From the NCBI RefSeq assembly GCF_018599245.1, contig NZ_JAHEVJ010000004.1:248001-312000 (forward strand): a stretch of DNA of 64,000 nt, in the 5' to 3' direction. Shown here piece after piece: positions 20,925 through 36,720 of this stretch. The stretch is from Aliiroseovarius lamellibrachiae. Lineage in GTDB: Bacteria; Pseudomonadota; Alphaproteobacteria; Rhodobacterales; Rhodobacteraceae. The position numbers and the translations under genes are program-made. The notes below the pieces were generated by a model. That model worked only from the letters and a program-made list of their open reading frames with translations, did not search any database and had not been told where the DNA came from. Within the stretch, counting starts at the first letter, position 1. Every line of letters starts with the position of its first letter.

Positions 20925-22715
20925 TCAGGTTTTTTTGGCCAGCACATAGGTTCCTGGTGCGGGCGCAAGCGGCGTATGGGACGAATCGCCCACCGCGCGC
21001 GCATCGACCTTTTTGCCAGACTTCCCAGACAGCCAATTATCCCATCGCCCCCACCATGACCCCTGATGGAACTCTGCGCCTTGCAACCAATCTTCTGACG
21101 CCTCTGGCCACGTCTCATTGGTATAGTGCCCATATTTCTTTTTAGAGGGCGGGTTGACGATTCCCGCAATATGGCCGCTTTCAGACAGGATAAAGGTTCG
21201 ATCTTTGGACCCCATCTTGCGCATCCCATTATACGACGACTTCCAGGCAGCAATGTGATCCGTCTCACAGGCAATCGCACAAATCGGCACCTCAACATCC
21301 GCGATCGACAGATGTTCGTTCAACAGCTCAAAGTCGCCCCGCGCAAATTGATCGCCCTGACACAACCCACGCAAATACTCGACCGTCATCTTGGCGGGTA
21401 AATTAGTGCCGTCCCCGTTCCAATACAGCAGATCAAACGCAGGAGGGGTCTTGCCCAACATATAGCTGTTGATCGCCGGGCCATAAACCAGATCATTTGA
21501 ACGCATATAAGAAAACGTCCGTGACATGAAAAAACTGCTCAGATAGCCGGTCTCTTTTACTTCTTCTTCGATGCCACTGACAAAATCATCATCCAGGAAA
21601 ACACCCACTTCGCCTTGATCAGAGAAATCCGTGAGCGTGGTGAAAAATGTGGCGGAGTTCACCGAGGTATCACCGCGCTTTTTCATCAAAGACAGCGCCA
21701 GCGACAGCGTGGTTCCCGCTATGCAATAGCCGACCACATTGACCTTTTTCTGGCCCGTTATGGCTTTGACCTCATTGATCGCCGCCAAATACCCCTCTTC
21801 GATATAATCCCCCAACCCAACCTCGGCATAACGAGCATCCGGGTTGACCCAGCTGACCACAAACAATGTGTATCCCTGATCAACAATCCATTTGATCAGG
21901 CTGTTTTGTTCTTTTAAATCAAGGATATAAAATTTGTTGATCCAAGGCGGAAAAATAATCAATGGCCGGGCATGAACCTTTTGCGTGGTGGGTTTGTATT
22001 GAATCAGCTCCAGCATTCTATTGCGATAAATGACCGACCCTTCGGTGGTCGCGATATTTTCGCCCACCTCAAACGCGCTTTCGTCCACCAGCTTGACCAC
22101 AAGTTCGCCGTCATTACTTTCCAGATCACGCACCAGGTTTTCCAACCCGTCGACCAAAGATTGCCCCTCGGTTTCTATTGCCCGTTCCATCGCATCAGGA
22201 TTGGTCGCCAGATAGTTTGTCGGGCTCATCATATCGATCATCTGACGGGTGAAAAATCCAAGCTTTTGCTTGTCGCGCTCGTCCAGCCCCTCCACATCCG
22301 ACAGCGTATTTTCCATCGCTTCAGAGGTGATCAAATATTGCTGTTTGAGATAGTTGTAATAGGGGTGCGTTTCCCAAAGCGGGTTGGAAAACCGCCGGTC
22401 TTTGGGGGTGTGATCCTCGGGGGCCACAAGTTCCCCCCCTGAGAGCGCTTGCTGAGCTTCCATCGCGTGCTGCAGGCTTTTGCCCCAAAACGCAACTTGT
22501 TGTTCGATGATTTTCGCCGGATTTGCCAGCACGTCATTCCAGCAGGCAGCAACCGCCTTGGCGTAAAATTCCTGACCCGGCCCCTGCAAGCTTTGCCTGA
22601 CGGCTTTCTTCCCGGCCACAATATTGGTTAAACGCGCAGACAACTCCTCAATCTTGGCTAGATTTTGATTTAACTCATTCAACTCATGGCCCTGATTTTT
22701 TTGGCTGGTTGTCAT
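20925..22715 (-). CDS. phaC: Class I poly(3-hydroxyalkanoate) polymerase
   Basis: 596-residue PHA synthase that polymerises 3-hydroxybutyryl-CoA at the granule surface. N-terminal PhaC_N domain (residues about 80-260), lipase-box-like GYCIAGTTLSL with the catalytic Cys, ETDHIAAW (catalytic Asp) and SGHIAGIVNPP (catalytic His). Length is that of class I enzymes that work without PhaE or PhaR-type subunits. Divergent from the depolymerase phaZ across a 125-base gap with a PhaR-type site. Confidence 0.97.
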   Translation of the reverse strand: MTTSQKNQGHELNELNQNLAKIEELSARLTNIVAGKKAVRQSLQGPGQEFYAKAVAACWNDVLANPAKIIEQQVAFWGKSLQHAMEAQQALSGGELVAPEDHTPKDRRFSNPLWETHPYYNYLKQQYLITSEAMENTLSDVEGLDERDKQKLGFFTRQMIDMMSPTNYLATNPDAMERAIETEGQSLVDGLENLVRDLESNDGELVVKLVDESAFEVGENIATTEGSVIYRNRMLELIQYKPTTQKVHARPLIIFPPWINKFYILDLKEQNSLIKWIVDQGYTLFVVSWVNPDARYAEVGLGDYIEEGYLAAINEVKAITGQKKVNVVGYCIAGTTLSLALSLMKKRGDTSVNSATFFTTLTDFSDQGEVGVFLDDDFVSGIEEEVKETGYLSSFFMSRTFSYMRSNDLVYGPAINSYMLGKTPPAFDLLYWNGDGTNLPAKMTVEYLRGLCQGDQFARGDFELLNEHLSIADVEVPICAIACETDHIAAWKSSYNGMRKMGSKDRTFILSESGHIAGIVNPPSKKKYGHYTNETWPEASEDWLQGAEFHQGSWWGRWDNWLSGKSGKKVDARAVGDSSHTPLAPAPGTYVLAKKT

Positions 22716-22762
22716 AAAGCAATTTCCCCACTATCTTATTTCGCACATGCAGCATTTTCTAT

Positions 22763-22773
22763 CTGCGATGCAG
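22763..22773. promoter_or_regulatory. PhaR-type operator between phaC and phaZ
   Basis: Exact CTGC-GAT-GCAG inverted site in the divergent promoter region, 48 bases before the phaC start and 68 bases before phaZ. A second TGCAGCA-like half-site lies at 22748-22754. It could control the polymerase and the depolymerase together. Confidence 0.65.
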
Positions 22774-22840
22774 CATCAGAAAAACAGCATATGTTTATAA
22801 CTATGCGGTAGGTTGGTTTGAAAAAGCAAAGGGTAATTGC

Positions 22841-24184
22841 ATGCGGTTTATGGCGACTTATGACTTGATGGAAACGATGCGCAACACCAACCAATGGTTG
22901 GGCGCGACGGCCGCCGCATTGGGGTCTTACCCAGCTACGGCTTTGATCCCGAACCCCTTTTTCCAAATGCTGTCCGCTTGGGGCGAAGTCACGGAACGCA
23001 GTTTTCACCGTATGCAAGAAAAACCAGATTGGGGCATCAACACCGTCGTGACCGAAGATGGCCGCGAACGATTGGTGGAAATTGAAACGCTGGTGGAACG
23101 CCCATTTGGTGACCTGATTAAATTCAACGCCGTGGGCCGCGCCCCCCGAGCGCGTCGAATCTTGTTGGTTGCCCCCATGTCCGGCCATTACGCAACCCTG
23201 CTGCGCTCAACCGTGCAAAGCCTGCTGCCCGACGCGGACGTCTATATCACCGACTGGCACAATGCGCGCGATATTCCCGTCAGTGAAGGCAAGTTTGATA
23301 TCGAGGATTATACCCTTTATCTGGTCGATTTCATGCGCCACCTCGGGCCGGATATCAACGTGGTGGCCGTATGCCAACCCGCCCCACTGACGCTGGCTGC
23401 CACTGCCTATCTCGCCGAAATCGACCCAGAGGCACAGCCCCAAACCTTGACCCTGATCGGCGGCCCGATTGACCCGGACGCCGCCGCCACTGATGTCACA
23501 GACTTTGGCCGCCGTGTCACCATGGGCCAGTTGGAAGAGTTTTCCATTCAGCGCGTGGGTTTCAAATATGGTGGCGTTGGTCGCTTGGTCTATCCGGGGC
23601 TTTTACAACTCGCGGGGTTCATCTCGATGAATTCCGAGATGCATTCAAAAGCGTTCCAAGATCAGATCAATCGCGTCGCGCGTGGCGCCGCGTCAGAGCA
23701 TGACAAGCACAATAAATTCTACGACGAATACCTCGCAGTGATGGATATGACCGCCGAGTTTTATCTGTCCACGGTCGAGCGGCTGTTCAAAGACAGTGAA
23801 GTGGCCAGCAATTCATTTGTCGTGGACGGCCATAAAGTCGACATTGGCGCAATTACCAATGTCGCGGTGAAAACCGTCGAAGGGTCCAAGGATGATATCA
23901 CAGCCCCCGGCCAATGCGTCGCAGCCCTGGATCTTTTGACCGGACTTTCCGACGACAAAAAGGCCAGTCACCTCGAAGAAGGCGCCGGGCATTACGGGAT
24001 TTTCGCAGGCAAAAGCTGGCGCAACAACATCCGCCCTCTTGTGCTAGATTTCATTGACCAAAATACTTCTGCACCTGCCGCGCAAGCGACAACCAAAAAA
24101 GCGGAAAAGCCAAAGACGGCAAAACCGAAAGCCACAAAATCCGATAAGGATGATGGGCCGCTCCCAACGCGCATTCCGGTTTAA
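22841..24184 (+). CDS. phaZ: Intracellular polyhydroxyalkanoate depolymerase
   Basis: 447-residue intracellular PHB depolymerase of the PHB_depo_C family, which mobilises granule polymer. Alpha/beta hydrolase core with a Cys nucleophile in VVAVCQPAPLTL, a conserved TLIGGPIDP block, and an acidic/His C-terminal region (EEGAGHYGIFAGKSWR). The last 40 residues are Lys/Ala/Pro-rich (AKPKATKSDK), a likely granule- or DNA-binding tail. Start: ATG 22841 is used; ATG 22850 (MATYDLMETM) is an alternative. The terminator is at 24197. Confidence 0.95.
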   Translation: MRFMATYDLMETMRNTNQWLGATAAALGSYPATALIPNPFFQMLSAWGEVTERSFHRMQEKPDWGINTVVTEDGRERLVEIETLVERPFGDLIKFNAVGRAPRARRILLVAPMSGHYATLLRSTVQSLLPDADVYITDWHNARDIPVSEGKFDIEDYTLYLVDFMRHLGPDINVVAVCQPAPLTLAATAYLAEIDPEAQPQTLTLIGGPIDPDAAATDVTDFGRRVTMGQLEEFSIQRVGFKYGGVGRLVYPGLLQLAGFISMNSEMHSKAFQDQINRVARGAASEHDKHNKFYDEYLAVMDMTAEFYLSTVERLFKDSEVASNSFVVDGHKVDIGAITNVAVKTVEGSKDDITAPGQCVAALDLLTGLSDDKKASHLEEGAGHYGIFAGKSWRNNIRPLVLDFIDQNTSAPAAQATTKKAEKPKTAKPKATKSDKDDGPLPTRIPV

Positions 24185-27909: not shown

Positions 27910-28340
27910 TGTCCGCGATCGGGCATGGGTATAAGAAACATGTATCTTTCCTTTGCATCACAGGGCCTTGCCCGATTTCCCGCAAAGACGTCACAATCCT
28001 CACGAAACCCGTGATCACCGCTTTGCATGGCCGCCTTGCCCCTGAAACATAGCTGCGACTGTCACATCTCACTCGCGCCAATTGTGACACATGCACCGAA
28101 TGCGCGCGCCCACCGTCCTGCCAATACCCCTAATTTTACTGTGATTTAGCCAATAGCAGCAAACCGACCCGATCACAGACCCGTGACCAGGCATCCCCAT
28201 TGCCTTCACGCCCCTGTGACTGACGCCGTCGTGAGTGGCAGGGGCCGCCGCCGCCGCCTAGGTTTTCCTCACCGCCACCGACAAACAGTTCGTCAATCGG
28301 ACCGGGGCGATACGAGTTTTAAACCTGAAAGGAAGTACAC
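27910..28340 (+). other. Non-coding leader region before the bufferin operon
   Basis: About 430 bases without a supported gene between the thrS terminator and bufA. It should hold the promoter and any metal- or stress-responsive control of the bufferin operon. A GC-rich stretch (28232-28260, with a CCG run) precedes the last 80 bases. The bufA RBS is GAAAGGAAG at 28327-28335. I could not identify a convincing sigma-70 or ECF promoter or a known operator by eye. Confidence 0.6.
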
Positions 28341-28643
28341 ATGTCGCAAGTAAAATCCATCGCCATCCTGGGTGCCATCACCGCCGCTGTTGCTGCAAAC
28401 GCTACCGCTGCTCTCGCTGACGGCGACCAAGAAAAATGCTTCGGTGTCGCACTCGCCGGCCAAAATGATTGTGCGGCTGGCCCAGGCACCACATGTGCTG
28501 GCACGTCCACGGTTGATTACCAAGGCAACGCTTGGAAACTTGTTCCCGCCGGCACCTGTGAGACCATGGAACTGACCGATGGTGGTGGGATGATGCACAA
28601 AGGTTCGCTGGAAGCCACCAAAATGAACCTGCCTGCGAGCTAA
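28341..28643 (+). CDS. bufA: Bufferin-type RiPP precursor (DUF2282, BufA1-like)
   Basis: 100-residue precursor. Sec-type signal peptide at residues 1-26 (cleavage after ATAALA), then a mature part with four cysteines at 33, 44, 52 and 73: [20 protein letters not shown] and VPAGTCET. This is the DUF2282 pattern of bufferins, exported peptides whose cysteines are oxidised by a DUF692 enzyme to copper-binding thiooxazoles and which protect from copper. The signal peptide in place of a cytosolic leader is usual for this class. It is first in the operon, followed by a hairpin and the DUF692, DUF2063 and DoxX genes. The function is inferred from family and context. Confidence 0.9.
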
Positions 28644-28650
28644 ATTGATA

Positions 28651-28674
28651 CTCCGGCCGCCCCGGTGGCCGGAG
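28651..28674 (+). promoter_or_regulatory. Stable hairpin between bufA and bufB
   Basis: Perfect 8-bp stem CTCCGGCC (28651-28658) and GGCCGGAG (28667-28674) with an 8-base loop, starting 7 bases after the bufA stop. No T run follows, so it is more likely a partial terminator or 3' stabiliser that yields more precursor mRNA than enzyme mRNA. Confidence 0.75.
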
Positions 28675-28704
28675 CCTCATACCTTCAGGATCCGGGAGCG
28701 TTCC

Positions 28705-29559
28705 ATGTTAGACATATCCCCAAAAGATACGTTACCAAAAGCTGGCGGTGTTGGTTACAAACCTCAGCATTTCAACGAGTTAATGAACGCCCCCGGGTCC
28801 GTCACCTGGCTGGAGATCCATGCCGAAAACTATATGGGGGCTGGCGGACGTCCCTTGGCGCAATTGCGTCACCTTGCCGAGAAATTTCCCATTTCCGTAC
28901 ACGGGGTCGGTTTGTCGATCGGTGGTGAGACCCGCCTTGATCCAGAACATCTGTCCCGTCTGAAGACCCTGATTGATTGGCTGAATCCCGCGATGTTTTC
29001 GGAACATCTTGCCTGGTCCACCCATGACGCGCAGTTTCTGAATGATCTGCTGCCCCTGCCCTATACCAATGACACGCTGACCCGTGTGACAGCGCATATC
29101 AACGAAGTGCAGGACCATCTGGGGCGCAAAATGCTGCTCGAGAACCCCTCCTCCTACCTCGCATTTGCCCAAAGCACCTGGTCCGAGCCTGATTTCCTGC
29201 GTGAACTTGCCCGGCGCACCGGCTGTGGGCTGCTTTTAGACGTCAACAATGTCTTTGTGTCAGCAACCAATCTGCACTTCGACCCCCGCGCCTATATTAA
29301 CGCATATCCACTTGATTTGGTGGAGGAATTCCACCTTGCTGGCCATGATGAAGATACCGACGAATTGGGCCGAAAGCTGCTTATAGACAGTCACGGAAAA
29401 CCCGTGGATGAACCGGTCTGGGCTTTGTTTGACCATGTAATTGCCAACGGCGGGGCACGCCCCGCGCTGGTAGAATGGGACAATGACGTGCCTGACTTTA
29501 ATGTGCTCGAGGCGGAAACCGCCCGTGCTGCGAGACATATGCAAGGGGTGGTCGCATGA
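28705..29559 (+). CDS. bufB: DUF692 multinuclear non-haem iron oxidase (MNIO, BufB)
   Basis: 284-residue TIM-barrel enzyme of the MbnB/DUF692 family, which uses a di- or tri-iron centre to modify cysteines of RiPP precursors. Candidate metal ligands by family pattern: His66 (SVHGVGLSIGG), Glu100/His101 (SEHLAW), Glu146-Asn147 (LLENPSS), Asp179/Asn182 (LLLDVNNVF), His210 and His214 (EFHLAGHDE), Asp228/His230 (IDSHG), Glu257 (VEWDND). Cytoplasmic; should act on BufA before export. ATG 28705 with GGGAG upstream is chosen over the frame to 28645. Its stop overlaps bufC (ATGA), as expected for a tight two-subunit complex. Confidence 0.93.
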   Translation: MLDISPKDTLPKAGGVGYKPQHFNELMNAPGSVTWLEIHAENYMGAGGRPLAQLRHLAEKFPISVHGVGLSIGGETRLDPEHLSRLKTLIDWLNPAMFSEHLAWSTHDAQFLNDLLPLPYTNDTLTRVTAHINEVQDHLGRKMLLENPSSYLAFAQSTWSEPDFLRELARRTGCGLLLDVNNVFVSATNLHFDPRAYINAYPLDLVEEFHLAGHDEDTDELGRKLLIDSHGKPVDEPVWALFDHVIANGGARPALVEWDNDVPDFNVLEAETARAARHMQGVVA

Positions 29560-30338
29560 CATTGGACCTGACAACATCTGCGCAAGACATGACCGTCAGT
29601 CAAAGCCGGTTTCGCAACGCGCTCTTGGACCCGGAAACACCTGCGCCTGATGGGTTGGTGACCCCCGAAGGCACCCATGCCGAAAAACGGTTTGGCGTCT
29701 ATCGCAACAACGTTTCCCATTCCCTGGCCAGCGCACTGGTTGACGGGTTTCCGGTGCTGACGAAATTGCTGGGCGAAGCGTTTTTCCGCCAAATGGCGCT
29801 GGTTTATCTGCGCATACATCCGCCCGCGTCTCAACTGATCATGCATTATGGTGCGGCGATGCCCACATTTCTGGTCGGGTTTCCCGGCACCGTGCATCTG
29901 AAATACCTGCCCGACGTGGCCCGATTAGAGCTGGCGTTGCGCCGCGCCTATCACGCAGGCGACGCCGAGGCGATTGCCCCCGCGGATCTGACCCAACTGG
30001 ATCAAGCCACGCTGATGGACACCCGCCTTGTGCTGGCACCAGCCGTTGAAACCCTCACCTCGGAGTTTCCGGCACTGTCGATCTGGGAATTCAACATGCA
30101 AGATGGGCCAACACCCACGATGCAAGCTGAAACCATCCTGATTTCACGCCGTGGGTACGACCCAGTGGCACAACGCCTGCCCCTTGGAGGTGCCGTTTTT
30201 GTAAACGCCTTAAAAAAAGGCCACGCCTTTGGCACGGCGTTGGGTTTGGCCACGTCCCAGGTGGCTGATTTCGACCTCACCGCAACGCTCAGCGCATTGA
30301 TTGCCGGGCATGGGATCATCAAGATCGAAAAAGGATAA
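29556..30338 (+). CDS. bufC: DUF2063 partner protein (BufC)
   Basis: 260-residue protein with an N-terminal DUF2063 domain (about residues 15-105: SQSRFRNALLDPE, RFGVYRNNVSHSLASALVDGFPVLTKLLGEAFF). Its C-terminal part parallels MbnC-type partners. Although databases call the domain putative DNA-binding, in MNIO systems it binds the DUF692 enzyme and helps recruit the precursor, so a complex with the adjacent BufB is the best inference. The start overlaps the bufB stop by four bases; bufD follows 4 bases after its stop. Confidence 0.9.
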   Translation: MTLDLTTSAQDMTVSQSRFRNALLDPETPAPDGLVTPEGTHAEKRFGVYRNNVSHSLASALVDGFPVLTKLLGEAFFRQMALVYLRIHPPASQLIMHYGAAMPTFLVGFPGTVHLKYLPDVARLELALRRAYHAGDAEAIAPADLTQLDQATLMDTRLVLAPAVETLTSEFPALSIWEFNMQDGPTPTMQAETILISRRGYDPVAQRLPLGGAVFVNALKKGHAFGTALGLATSQVADFDLTATLSALIAGHGIIKIEKG

Positions 30339-30342
30339 CAAC

Positions 30343-30891
30343 ATGAACGCTCTTGTGGCATTTCACAATACGCTGGCTGATAGGGTCGAGCGTCTCTCCC
30401 CCGCTGTCCTGCCGACATTGGCACGCTTCACCTTTGCGGCGACCCTGTTGGGGTACTTCTGGGCCTCGGGCCTGACCAAGGTTGGTGCGGGGGTGTTTGG
30501 CATCTTCTCCCCCTCGCTTGGGGCCTACGCGCAGATTTTCCCAAAAGCGATGGAGGCCGCGAGCTATGACGTCGGCCAGCTCACCGCCTTTCACACATTG
30601 GTTGTCATCGCCGGAACCTTGGCGGAGTTTATCCTGCCGCTCTTGTTGGCGGTTGGCCTCTTCACCCGGTTAAGCGCCCTTGCCATGATTGGATTTGTAA
30701 GCGTGCAATCCCTGACCGATCTGTTCGGCCACGGCGGCATTGCACATCACGAAACGCTGGGCGCCTGGTTTGATCGGATCCCAGACAGTGTCATCCTGGA
30801 TCAACGGTTGTTTTGGATGGCGGTGCTGATCACGTTGGTGATCAAGGGCGCTGGTCCGTTATCGCTGGACCGGTTGCTGAAACTGCGCTGA
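30343..30891 (+). CDS. bufD: DoxX family membrane protein (BufD)
   Basis: 182-residue inner-membrane protein of the DoxX family with four predicted TM helices. The RFTFAATLLGYFWASGLTKV helix, FHTLVVIAGTLAEFILPLLLAVGLFTR and a C-terminal VLITLVIKGAGPLSLD segment are visible. DoxX proteins close many bufferin-type operons; their role may be in redox handling or export but is not settled. ATG 30343 is preceded by AAAGGATAACAAC; upstream in-frame ATGs from 30301 overlap bufC. An intrinsic terminator follows. Confidence 0.88.
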   Translation: MNALVAFHNTLADRVERLSPAVLPTLARFTFAATLLGYFWASGLTKVGAGVFGIFSPSLGAYAQIFPKAMEAASYDVGQLTAFHTLVVIAGTLAEFILPLLLAVGLFTRLSALAMIGFVSVQSLTDLFGHGGIAHHETLGAWFDRIPDSVILDQRLFWMAVLITLVIKGAGPLSLDRLLKLR

Positions 30892-31898: not shown

Positions 31899-33053
31899 TT
31901 AGCAACCGACCTCTTTGCAAAGCAGTTGGACCCATCGCTCATTGTAGGAATAACTTTTGTATGTTGGGTTGTAGTAGCAATAATCCAAATTTGTTTTCTC
32001 CGGCCTTTCCACCCCACCCACTGGTCGAACTTTCTTGGACTTCCAAGCTTGCGTATGCATATGCTGGTTAAATTGACCACCAGTACGATTATTCACCTCA
32101 ATAACAACCTGCCCCGCCAAAAACGGGTGAGTTAAGGCAGAGGGTTTATGCTTCACTAAAACGTTTTTCACGTCCTCGCCTTCAGCACTATCTGGCGAAA
32201 TAAAGCGCACAAAAGAAGATGACTTCGAACCTGCAACAGTGGTGTAAACAACAGAAAATTGGAATTCTTGGTCAGATTGTTGGTCTTCTGTCAGCCCATC
32301 AAAAACTTCCGAGTTAATCGCTTTAATTGCTTGTGGCAGCTCGGACCGGAGCATTGTTTCGGACTGCTCAATAGAGATTCCAGAAAATTGAAGTGAGAAA
32401 GCTAACTCTTTTGAAAGCGAAAGCCGTTCGCCAAAAAGTTCAACAATCTTCTTTTCATAGTTGACACAACAAGCTTGGAACACCCCCAACCAGTCACCGA
32501 TACGTGGGCCGACCAGATTGTGCTCTACGCTATCCCGAATGCTAATAACAGCCTTGAGATTGTTCTTGATACCTTCGGAAAAGGGGCATCCGTTATGCTT
32601 CAAAAAATCGGAAAGTGAAATTGCACTACCATTTTGCCGTTTGGTTGGGAGGTCGTTTTCATCTGCGAATTCGATCGCAAGATAGGTCCACGCAATCACG
32701 GCGAGCACTGAAAAGGTTTCAGCTCGAAAGCTGATGGCGGGACTGTTAAATACCTGAACAGCTAACAACATAGCTTCACGCGACTTAACCAACCTTTCAT
32801 CCAAAAACGGGCTCAAACCCGTTTGAGCGTCAAACGACCGCTTAAAGGCTCGATATTCTTCCAACTCCTTTTTAGCAGCGGCCTTTTGGTTTGGATCATC
32901 GCGAACGTCGTAGATTCTCCCGACATTTACCGTGCAGGGACGAAAAGAGTTAATCTCAGTAACAATATCCTGTGCACGCCAGTGCTCATTTAAGAACCCC
33001 CTAACAATCCGTTTCTCATAGACATTTAAGCCACCAGTTTTTCCAAATTGCAT
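31899..33053 (-). CDS. DUF3644-like accessory protein
   Basis: 384 residues. The middle (about 90-190) resembles DUF3644: SREAMLLAVQVFNSPAISFRAETFSVLAVIAWTYL, then the conserved SIRDSVEHNLVG block. The N-terminus (VRGFLNEHWRAQDIVTEIN) could be a small helical or HTH module, and the C-terminus (about 320-384) is a His/Asn/Tyr-rich region (WKSKKVRPVGG, LDYCYYNPTYKSYSYNERWV) like those of other DUF3644 proteins. Base composition looks more AT-rich than neighbouring genes and it breaks a housekeeping stretch, so acquisition is likely. Biochemical role unknown; such genes often occur in defence or mobile islands. Confidence 0.75.
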   Translation of the reverse strand: MQFGKTGGLNVYEKRIVRGFLNEHWRAQDIVTEINSFRPCTVNVGRIYDVRDDPNQKAAAKKELEEYRAFKRSFDAQTGLSPFLDERLVKSREAMLLAVQVFNSPAISFRAETFSVLAVIAWTYLAIEFADENDLPTKRQNGSAISLSDFLKHNGCPFSEGIKNNLKAVISIRDSVEHNLVGPRIGDWLGVFQACCVNYEKKIVELFGERLSLSKELAFSLQFSGISIEQSETMLRSELPQAIKAINSEVFDGLTEDQQSDQEFQFSVVYTTVAGSKSSSFVRFISPDSAEGEDVKNVLVKHKPSALTHPFLAGQVVIEVNNRTGGQFNQHMHTQAWKSKKVRPVGGVERPEKTNLDYCYYNPTYKSYSYNERWVQLLCKEVGC

Positions 33054-34067: not shown

Positions 34068-34307
34068 GACGAATCTCTCTGTGGCTGTGTCTGGCGCCAC
34101 TATATCTAGGCGCAGGTGATTGCTAAACTGCTATATACCGGAAAATCCGCACAATAGATGGCCGCCCATCGAGGCAGCGCAAGCGACGCAAGCGCACAAC
34201 ACCCACCGGCAAAAATCATCTAAGGCCAAGGGAAACTTGACAAATCACCCCCACCCCGCCCTGATATGAAAAAAACTAAATCGAAATATCCCTTGAGGGG
34301 CAGGTCA

Positions 34308-35360
34308 ATGAAAAAACTACTAGTGGCAGGAGCTGTTTTAACAGCACTGGGGGCCTGTAATGGCCAATACAACCCGTTGACCAATCCAAAGCCTGCGGAA
34401 ACAGAGCTTCCCCCTGGGACAGAAGACCCCGGGTCAGGCAGCTCGGTTGAACGTTATGAAGCTGAGGATGGAAATGGCAACGGCTATGCCCAGTCCATCA
34501 CCTACGATGAGGCGAGCAACACATTCACCGTCGACAACCTCGCGTTTGATGGCGCCAATGAATACACGCAAGACGATGATGTGGCGACCTTACGCAGCTA
34601 CCGCGTGTATGAAAACGCCTCAACATTCAAAGACAGCGTAACCGGCACGCCGATCAACCAATTCAGTCATAAGGCCATCCTTGGCATCAGCAAAAACACC
34701 AATGCCGATGGCACACCCGTCAGCCAATTTGCTGTTGTGCGCACGGGCGCCTATCGGGGTTATGGTTTTGGCGGCTTTATGTATGAACGCAATGGGGGCG
34801 TGGTGTTGCCCACTTCCGGACAAGCAACATTTAGCGGCGACTATGCCGGTTTGCGCGACTTTAACGGCCAGGCCGGGCTGGAATACACCACCGGCGATAT
34901 GGTGTTGGACATTGATTTCAATGACTTCAACGCAGGCGACGCCGTGAAAGGTCGCATTACCAAGCGTCAGGTTTATAGTCTCGATGGCATCAACCTGACC
35001 AGCACCTATGTCACAGAAATCAACGCCGACAACGCCAGCTCTGATGGTTGGGTCGATCTTCCAACCACCCCAAACCAACCGACGGGTCCGAGCGAGCCAA
35101 CCAATCCGGCCAACGCGGTTTACCTACCCACCTTAACCCTCACCGTAAGCTCGGATACCTTAAATTCCGCTGGCGAATTGACCAACGGCATCAGCAGTAG
35201 CCATTCAGGTGTTGTCCTTGAAAATGGCAATTATTACGCCGTTCTTGCTGGCGAAGGTGCAGATATGGAAGTGGCAGGCATCGTTGTGATCGACGGCAAA
35301 GATCCCGGCAACGACAGCGTCACAATCCGCGAAACAGGCGGCTTTATTCTGTACCGTTGA
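34308..35360 (+). CDS. TbpB-like surface lipoprotein (probable Slam client)
   Basis: 350 residues. Lipoprotein signal peptide with lipobox LGAC (lipidated Cys17), an Asn/Pro/Glu-rich linker, then a beta-rich domain. The segment around residues 150-230 (YRGYGFGGFMYERNG, SGQATFSGDYAGLRDFNGQAG, DIDFNDFNAGDAVKG) has the GxATFxGxYxG and hydrophobic-alternating pattern of the TbpB/FHBP-type eight-stranded barrel. The ligand is unknown; no TonB receptor is adjacent. ATG 34308 with GAGGGGCAGG is used over the frame to 34266. The Slam-like barrel gene starts 4 bases after the stop, which strongly suggests it is the exporter's substrate. Confidence 0.82.
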   Translation: MKKLLVAGAVLTALGACNGQYNPLTNPKPAETELPPGTEDPGSGSSVERYEAEDGNGNGYAQSITYDEASNTFTVDNLAFDGANEYTQDDDVATLRSYRVYENASTFKDSVTGTPINQFSHKAILGISKNTNADGTPVSQFAVVRTGAYRGYGFGGFMYERNGGVVLPTSGQATFSGDYAGLRDFNGQAGLEYTTGDMVLDIDFNDFNAGDAVKGRITKRQVYSLDGINLTSTYVTEINADNASSDGWVDLPTTPNQPTGPSEPTNPANAVYLPTLTLTVSSDTLNSAGELTNGISSSHSGVVLENGNYYAVLAGEGADMEVAGIVVIDGKDPGNDSVTIRETGGFILYR

Positions 35361-35364
35361 TCCG

Positions 35365-36720
35365 ATGACACGTTTGAAACCTTGGCTTATTGCTGGCCTA
35401 TTGGCCCTGTCCCCGCTTTCGGGTCAGGCGCAATCCGTCACGCTGTCCCCGGTGCAAATGCACCAAACCGCGCGCGCGGCTTTGGCTGCACATAACCCTG
35501 CGCTTGCCTTGGCCTTGGCCGATGCACTTTTAAAGGTTTCCCCTGATCAATTTGGTATTTTGATCCTGAAATCACGGGCAGAGCGGGATTTGGGCAAGTT
35601 TTCCGCCGCTCGAAAGTCCGCGCGCCGCGCGTGGAAATTGGCCAAAACACCCAACGCGAAATTCGCAGCCTCCTTGATCACGGCGCAAGCCTTGTCTTCG
35701 GCAGGCAGCAAAACCCGCGCGCAAATCTGGTTGCGGCGCGCATCTGATCACGCCACAACACCGGCCCAAAAAGCGCAATTACGGCGAGATTTCAACTATG
35801 TTCGCGCGACGAACCCGTGGCGCGTCAATCTCGGCTTTGGCATGAACCCCAGTTCCAATGTCAACGGTGGGTCGTCTAAGGATACGATCACGCTGTTTGG
35901 GTTCCCATTTGCCTTGTCAGACGATGCAAAGGCGCTGTCCGGGTTTCAGGCCTTTGCAACCGCCGATATCTCCTATCGCCTGAAGGAAACGCAACGCTCC
36001 CGGACATCTTTGGGATTTCAGGCCTATCATCGGGAAACATGGTTAAGTGATGACGCAAAAGAGGCCGCCCCAACCGCCAAAGGTGGGGATTTTCGCTATA
36101 CCTCTGCGGCCCTGACCTTCAAGCACCAACATATCATTTCGAACAAAGGCACACGGCTTGATCTGTCCGCCCGCCTGGGGCGCAATTGGTACGGCAACGC
36201 GCCCCTATCCAATTTCGCAGGCCTTGGCGCGGACGTGCATTGGCGTCTTTCAGCCGGCAAAAGGCTAAGCCTGCGCACGCGTTTTGATCTTCAAGATCAT
36301 CAGGACGACGAAACCCCAAACACCTACATCGGATCTTTTGGAGTACGTTATAGCTTGCCCGCACTGGGGCATCGCTGGACGCTTTCCGGCGATTACCAAC
36401 AAAGCTTTTCAGAAAGTTTATCCCGCGAATACAAAGAGTTTCGCGCAGGAGTGGATGTTGCTTTGGGAAAACCAATTGCAGGTATGGATGTCTCAATGGG
36501 CGTACAAGCCAGCACGCGTTCTTATGACGTTTCACGCTATGCAGCCGATGGACGGCATGACACCAGCATTGAGGCAAACGCGGCCATCACCCTTAACACA
36601 CTTGGCCATCTGGGCTTCTCTCCTGTCGTGACACTGCGCCACCGCCACACAAACTCGAATGTCTCACTCTACAGCACCAACGAAACGGCGCTCGGGCTTT
36701 CGCTGACCTCGAATTTCTAA
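35365..36720 (+). CDS. Slam-like outer-membrane protein (surface lipoprotein assembly modifier)
   Basis: 451 residues. Signal peptide 1-23 (LLALSPLSGQAQ), an Ala/Arg-rich helical TPR-like region at about 30-150 (ARAALAAHNPALALALADALLK, ARKSARRAWKLAKTPNAKFAASL), and a beta-barrel domain from about 153 to the end (NPWRVNLGFGMNPSSNVNGGS, then alternating strands). It finishes in LSLTSNF with the terminal Phe of outer-membrane barrels. This is the Slam/DUF560 architecture that moves TbpB-like lipoproteins to the cell surface in Neisseria. Pairing with the upstream lipoprotein (4-base gap) supports that role here; the assignment is by architecture, not by identity. Confidence 0.82.
   Translation: MTRLKPWLIAGLLALSPLSGQAQSVTLSPVQMHQTARAALAAHNPALALALADALLKVSPDQFGILILKSRAERDLGKFSAARKSARRAWKLAKTPNAKFAASLITAQALSSAGSKTRAQIWLRRASDHATTPAQKAQLRRDFNYVRATNPWRVNLGFGMNPSSNVNGGSSKDTITLFGFPFALSDDAKALSGFQAFATADISYRLKETQRSRTSLGFQAYHRETWLSDDAKEAAPTAKGGDFRYTSAALTFKHQHIISNKGTRLDLSARLGRNWYGNAPLSNFAGLGADVHWRLSAGKRLSLRTRFDLQDHQDDETPNTYIGSFGVRYSLPALGHRWTLSGDYQQSFSESLSREYKEFRAGVDVALGKPIAGMDVSMGVQASTRSYDVSRYAADGRHDTSIEANAAITLNTLGHLGFSPVVTLRHRHTNSNVSLYSTNETALGLSLTSNF

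Follow-up and report, generated by a model that had tools for sequence, protein, structure and literature searches.

A standard Buf1 bufferin operon in Aliiroseovarius lamellibrachiae with a conserved double palindrome upstream and a hairpin after its precursor gene

The 64,000-nucleotide stretch of Aliiroseovarius lamellibrachiae DNA analyzed here (contig NZ_JAHEVJ010000004.1, positions 248,001 to 312,000 of the forward strand; hereafter the window) carries a four-gene operon, bufA-bufB-bufC-doxX, which is a standard Buf1 bufferin operon. It belongs to a known, published family and is not in itself new. Very probably it specifies a modified, exported peptide that buffers periplasmic copper, from a promoter regulated in trans and with a hairpin that favors the precursor transcript. 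Two of its parts, a conserved site upstream of bufA and a hairpin in the bufA-bufB spacer, were not found described in print.

An initial annotation of the sequence had placed the four genes at 28341-30891, and open reading frames were found at those positions:

28341..28643, plus strand: bufA, Buf1 (DUF2282) bufferin precursor, 100 amino acids (PF10048, 4.7e-26)
28705..29559, plus strand: bufB, MNIO (DUF692) bufferin maturase, 284 amino acids (NF050167, 375.8 bits)
29556..30338, plus strand: bufC, DUF2063 (PME type 1) partner protein, 260 amino acids (PF09836, 3.4e-23)
30343..30891, plus strand: doxX, DoxX-family membrane protein, 182 amino acids (PF07681, 3.7e-06)

All four products pass the Pfam cut-offs, BufB as MbnB_TglH_ChrH (1.5e-103) and the others as DUF2282, DUF2063 and DoxX with the values listed. 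The bufB frame is open from a TTG at 28645, and we set its start at the ATG at 28705 because that codon is preceded by GGGAG, which makes it appear the better of the two. The predicted ATGA overlap of bufB and bufC is present (bufC ATG at 29556, bufB stop ending at 29559), and doxX does begin 4 bases after bufC (bufC end 30338, doxX ATG 30343). The genome has one MNIO gene and one DUF2282 gene, both located at this operon.

The translation of bufA contains exactly the four Cys that had been listed for a 100-residue product, at positions 33, 44, 52 and 73; they are the only Cys of the protein, and all 42 BufA sequences compared, which come from 41 loci, have them without exception. Its N-terminus is hydrophobic and has an AxA at residue 26 (read by eye, with no signal-peptide predictor), so that BufA probably carries an export signal that is cleaved after this AxA. 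No NCBIfam model matches BufA, and the motif EGKCG is absent from its sequence. We also note a tandem pair of bufA genes before one bufBC-doxX set in a relative (L049); in another genome (G100) PF10048 matches twice at close distance.

BufB scores 375.8 bits against the curated NCBI bufferin-maturase model NF050167 (MNIO_BufB), whose cut-off is 310, and falls below the cut-off of each of the HvfB, ApyH, MbnB and ChrH NCBIfam models (for MbnB, 69 bits vs 325). The DUF692 His/Glu/Asp/Asn ligand pattern claimed for it is kept: 16 of the 18 His, Glu, Asp and Asn positions examined are invariant in all 41 BufB sequences, the window's own included, among them H66, E100, H101, E146, D179, N181, H210, D228, H230, E257 and D259. 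The protein can be aligned to 3bww (E 6.6e-44) and also to TglH and MbnB. In the 3bww alignment E100 stands opposite an Asp; by our reading of it, N181, D228 and H230 correspond to HvfB N175, D242 and H244, which are essential and whose replacement abolishes activity (PMC13419390), and D259 corresponds to D249, the residue proposed as catalytic base in FonB (PMC13097082). The residue after D259, a Phe in FonB, is Asn in 25, Thr in 15 and Ala in 1 of the 41 sequences, and this variability fits the stated lack of conservation at this position in DUF2282 enzymes. From these alignments, BufB appears to retain both the MNIO iron ligands and the catalytic base.

An AlphaFold model of BufC (predicted local distance difference test score, pLDDT, 93.7) was compared with the PDB by fold search, and matches at E <=0.001 are limited to chain A of TglHI (8hci, 1.1e-5; 8hi7, 3.8e-5) and 3dee (4.4e-4), the last of which is named as a PME1 partner (PMC13097082). 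A fourth, weak match is 7fc0_C of the MbnABC complex (0.23), and a sequence search of the PDB with BufC gave no real match. The model thus supports a resemblance of BufC to the MNIO partner proteins (PME type 1, DUF2063). Methanobactin MbnBC and TglHI share an enzyme superfamily with BufB, and the BufC model is like the TglHI chain and weakly like the MbnABC chain, but precursor, product and role in those systems differ from those of a bufferin operon. The captophorins (fontiphorin, oxazolin HvfABC, gonophorin) likewise pair an MNIO with a DUF2063-type partner and are described as carrying 5-thiooxazoles on a Cys precursor; their precursors consist of EGKCG repeats, whereas BufA is a four-Cys DUF2282 domain (PMC13097082). 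Assignment to an HvfABCX (oxazolin) operon was considered and rejected, since BufC reaches 33 bits with the HvfC model (cut-off 142), DoxX reaches 27.9 bits with the HvfX model (cut-off 80) and BufA has no EGKCG.

DUF2282 (PF10048) is present in 106 of 149 same-family genomes, this one (G000) included. Among 30 loci, 29 from relatives plus the window's own, bufA, bufB and bufC occur in 29, and the remaining one (L015), which is short, has bufA and bufB only. In longer stretches of 7.5-9 kb from relatives the A-B-C order holds in 40 of 40, with a detectable DoxX in 39; 23 of these 40 come from genomes already in the 30-locus set. Together with the invariant Cys, this constancy lies well outside what chance would give. 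The gene thrS often lies upstream and an ArsC-like gene often downstream of the relatives' operons (read by eye), as in the window, and the constant order together with these recurrent neighbors makes the operon look like an old one that has been kept largely by vertical descent. The family models, gene order, invariant Cys and MNIO ligand positions and the BufC fold all bear out the assignment to the bufferin operons, more precisely to the Buf1 type. The accompanying remark that the exact product is undescribed holds for this organism only, as the Buf1 product class is already in print.

Two elements of regulatory interest lie upstream of bufA:

28205..28239, plus strand: conserved operator-like site, two adjoining ACG-N5-GTGA palindromic units, 15 bp apart
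28259..28264, plus strand: candidate -10 element TAGGTT, read from the sequence; the second GTGA starts 28-29 bp before it

When 41 upstream regions, each 450 bp long at most, were searched for motifs by expectation-maximization (EM), a strong one emerged about 90-140 bp before bufA, on which 32 loci could be aligned. A GTGA-N11-GTGA dyad lies within 200 bp in 21 of the 41 loci; mononucleotide shuffles average 0.065. The motif model, whose training data include the window's own site, gives 28205-28239 a score of 25.2 bits (E 6.7e-5), and among the 150 of 1353 first-look candidates that were scored, the best other position in the genome has 13.7 bits. When up to one mismatch is allowed, the dyad pattern occurs in the genome once exactly, upstream of bufA, and twice with one mismatch; a reversed-pattern control gave 0. 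One of the single-mismatch matches is at window positions 32153-32179, within a gene (31902-33053) for a DUF3644 protein of 384 amino acids (PF12358, 2.5e-38) that is the third gene 3' of the operon, after the ArsC-like gene and a cold-shock gene. In same-genus relatives the model matches right before bufA in 12 of 15, at about 16-23 bits, weaker than in the window; in G156 the contig stops at the match, next to thrS, and bufA is not visible. A wider regulon was considered and rejected: the recurrent second matches in G150, G151, G152, G155 and G161 sit in one orthologous coding stretch, which points to chance.

No -35 element was recognized by eye near the candidate -10, and several aligned sites show TAGG or TAGC at a similar distance when read by eye. 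A link to MerR was also rejected, as none of the 10 MerR_1 matches in the genome could be tied to the upstream site. No recurring regulator gene was seen among the 148 open reading frames that flank the 40 relatives' operons, of which the first 50 residues were read by eye with no family search, and nothing in the window reaches an Rfam gathering score. In the literature on DUF692/DUF2282/MNIO, copper, NrsF and Rhodobacterales promoters, within a scope that took in few subscription papers, we found no description of the site. We also note copies of TGTAACA/TGTTACA before bufA in many relatives among L032-L071, one to three per locus at distances of about 80-390 bp; in the window the 450 bp preceding bufA contain no copy.

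The homologous operon of Caulobacter vibrioides (CCNA_03363-03366 / CC3254-CC3257) is described as having the same order of DUF2282 (93 amino acids there), DUF692, DUF2063 and DoxX genes, but it is preceded by sigF, which encodes an extracytoplasmic function (ECF) sigma factor, and is under SigF/NrsF control, whereas the present genome has no NrsF match and the operon has a different conserved upstream site. SigF/NrsF regulation is reported to occur in Buf1 biosynthetic gene clusters and is not part of the definition of the family (PMC12452194). Control of the present operon by NrsF was rejected: NrsF (PF06532) has no match in the genome, SigF itself not having been searched for, and GTAAC-N16-18-CGA[AC], patterned on the published SigF promoter motif GTAACC-N16-CGAA (PMC3511200), was not found in the 250 bp upstream in the window.

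Among 148 family genomes NrsF is matched in 22, in 21 of them over the cut-off, and loci with and without it differ in the double palindrome. In the discovery set (the window and 40 genomes drawn from the other 105 with DUF2282, mostly the better-scoring ones) the site is present in 32 of 34 NrsF-lacking loci, the window included, vs 0 of 7 NrsF-bearing loci. L049, whose site is out of the 15-bp register and apparently has a 1-base insertion, was counted as a miss, as was L062, and G129 (L047), where an NrsF match below the cut-off contains stops, was counted as NrsF-lacking. Because the motif had been found on these loci themselves, 64 further genomes were tested (64 of the remaining 65, G098 having no upstream DNA), with the maximum of 320 shuffles as threshold, and the site was found in 43 of 55 NrsF-lacking vs 0 of 9 NrsF-bearing loci; the held-out count becomes 42 of 54 without G148, which was taken as NrsF-lacking though by its numbering it falls outside the NrsF search. 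Of the 7 discovery genomes with NrsF, 6 have it adjoining bufA, and G135 has it on another contig. Conversely, a relaxed SigF-type promoter is present in 5 of 7 NrsF-bearing vs 0 of 34 NrsF-lacking discovery loci. The held-out figures, 3 of 9 vs 1 of 55, constitute a weak test, made with narrower spacing and on a different upstream stretch than the discovery test.

The second conserved part lies between the precursor gene and the maturase gene:

28651..28674, plus strand: spacer hairpin, 8-bp perfect stem CTCCGGCC/GGCCGGAG, GC-rich, no U tract

Of the 41 spacers, 26 contain a perfect stem of at least 8 bp, vs 2.8% of mononucleotide shuffles; in three same-length control windows the counts are 7, 0 and 0 of 41, the 7 belonging to the region upstream of bufA. 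The position of the hairpin is kept among the relatives while the stem sequences differ. Whole-spacer folding energies, compared with dinucleotide shuffles, have a median z of -2.3, and 23 of the 41 are below -2. At least 4 T within the 8 bases after the stem occur in only 9 of the 41 loci, so most of these hairpins look like stability or pausing elements and not like intrinsic terminators. Their position suggests that they may serve expression of the precursor over the enzymes.

These observations allow a tentative proposal for most of the family, which we regard as quite possible, if short of probable: the bufferin would have left the ECF SigF/NrsF regulon and come under a dedicated regulator with the double palindrome as its principal or sole target; the hairpin after bufA would set the ratio of precursor to enzyme, and this regulator would be a new sensor of copper or of another stress. 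It is rather unlikely, in our estimation, that the upstream motif is instead a conserved promoter, a leader or an unrelated element, for example the promoter of another sigma factor. That neither the dyad pattern nor the model scan (150 of the 1353 candidates) gave a second convincing target in the genome would agree with such an element; on the other hand the site is built of tandem palindromic units with a 15-bp period, it recurs in the held-out loci at the frequency given above and in none where NrsF is present, and it stands 5' of the -10-like element with no overlap. One more member of a large published family changes little by itself, and the useful part of the present case is the regulatory contrast between the Caulobacter Buf1 operon, under an ECF sigma factor, and the alternative site tested here on held-out genomes. 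With a site defined by sequence, the search for the regulator, and hence for the bufferin signal in these bacteria, becomes a direct matter of pull-down.

The function of an exported copper-buffering peptide is proposed because the operon is homologous to the Caulobacter Buf1 operon (PMC12452194, PMC8224329). Buf1 (DUF2282) precursors encoded with an MNIO, a DUF2063 protein and DoxX have been described, in which the central Cys are modified and the outer Cys form a disulfide; the C. vibrioides thiooxazoles are reported to chelate Cu(I) and Cu(II), and growth is enhanced under copper excess (PMC12452194). The Caulobacter operon belongs to the copper-induced SigF regulon and also responds to chromate and cadmium (PMC8224329, PMC3511200). 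A second relative, gigPABT of Cupriavidus metallidurans, likewise unites a precursor gene, a gene in the MNIO position and DUF2063 and DoxX-like genes in a single operon; GigP has 94 amino acids and four Cys in its mature part. The operon lies divergently to rpoQ, an ECF sigma gene, and to a putative anti-sigma gene, and control by RpoQ is assumed in Cupriavidus. It is induced by copper and gold (PMC10304878), and at 37 C both metals are reported to elicit a response of a Legionella homolog (PMC5413113).

The analysis shows the gene content and order, the ligand positions and the conservation of the upstream site and of the hairpin; chemistry, metal, export, regulator, mode of activation and stoichiometry are inferred as follows. 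A trans-acting regulator, other than SigF/NrsF, would bind 28205-28239 and activate a promoter with its -10 near 28259 and no clear -35, and the hairpin after bufA would keep the precursor transcript above the enzyme transcripts. By homology, BufC would hold the unexported BufA precursor while BufB, as an iron-dependent MNIO oxidase, turned the central Cys 44 and 52 into thiooxazoles; following Sec export the outer Cys 33 and 73 would form a disulfide, and the mature peptide would bind periplasmic copper ions and so buffer their excess. DoxX may be a membrane accessory, perhaps with a redox role.

Several points weigh against this scheme. The neighbors of the operon are thrS and an ArsC-like gene, a context that does not single out copper. 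Gig is reported as the least important of five copper systems in Cupriavidus (PMC10304878), and copper lowers the activity of the Legionella GIG promoter at 26 C (PMC5413113). The sub-cut-off HvfC and HvfX scores of BufC and DoxX might also be counted here; they are expected for Buf1, not Hvf. The window's hairpin taken alone is only mildly stronger than shuffles (z -1.84, with 10 of 200 shuffles as good; -2.5 for the whole spacer). In 4 of the 15 same-genus relatives (G150, G152, G155 and G161) a coding-sequence match outranks or replaces the upstream site. Twelve of the 55 held-out NrsF-lacking loci have neither the site nor a SigF-type promoter, which implies either some third arrangement or divergence of the site. 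Finally, the BufB tree needs about 3 changes of the NrsF label, with 5 of the 7 NrsF loci in one 100/100 clade, and Fisher p-values overstate independence because the NrsF contrast rests on so few changes; the NrsF locus L040 groups with a site-bearing sister locus at 93/84 (not starred), and many inner branches of the tree are without support.

The same operon and chemistry could have gold, chromate, cadmium or envelope/oxidative stress as the main ligand or stress, with copper secondary. The gold response of gig and the chromate and cadmium responses in Caulobacter point in that direction, as do the absence of a copper gene adjoining the operon in the window and an upstream site unlike that of the copper-responsive SigF promoters. 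We nevertheless judge this improbable, as the chemically studied Buf1 member binds Cu and aids growth under copper excess (PMC12452194), and nothing in the invariant four Cys of BufA and ligand positions of BufB indicates altered chemistry. That the operon is a remnant, decayed or unmodified, whose precursor is made and not oxidized, was considered since stand-alone bufferin precursors exist (PMC12452194), and this is almost certainly wrong, as no supporting point was found and all four frames are open with the ligand positions and Cys retained. Copper buffering by a modified BufA is the reading we prefer.

Farther from the operon, the window holds two other gene pairs. At 34266-36717 a protein of 364 amino acids with a lipoprotein-like N-terminal signal and no Pfam match is followed, 4 bases on, by a SlipAM protein (PF04575), and the two resemble a surface lipoprotein with its exporter. 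At 20928-24181 a PhaC synthase gene (minus strand) is divergent from a gene for a PHB depolymerase-like protein (plus strand).

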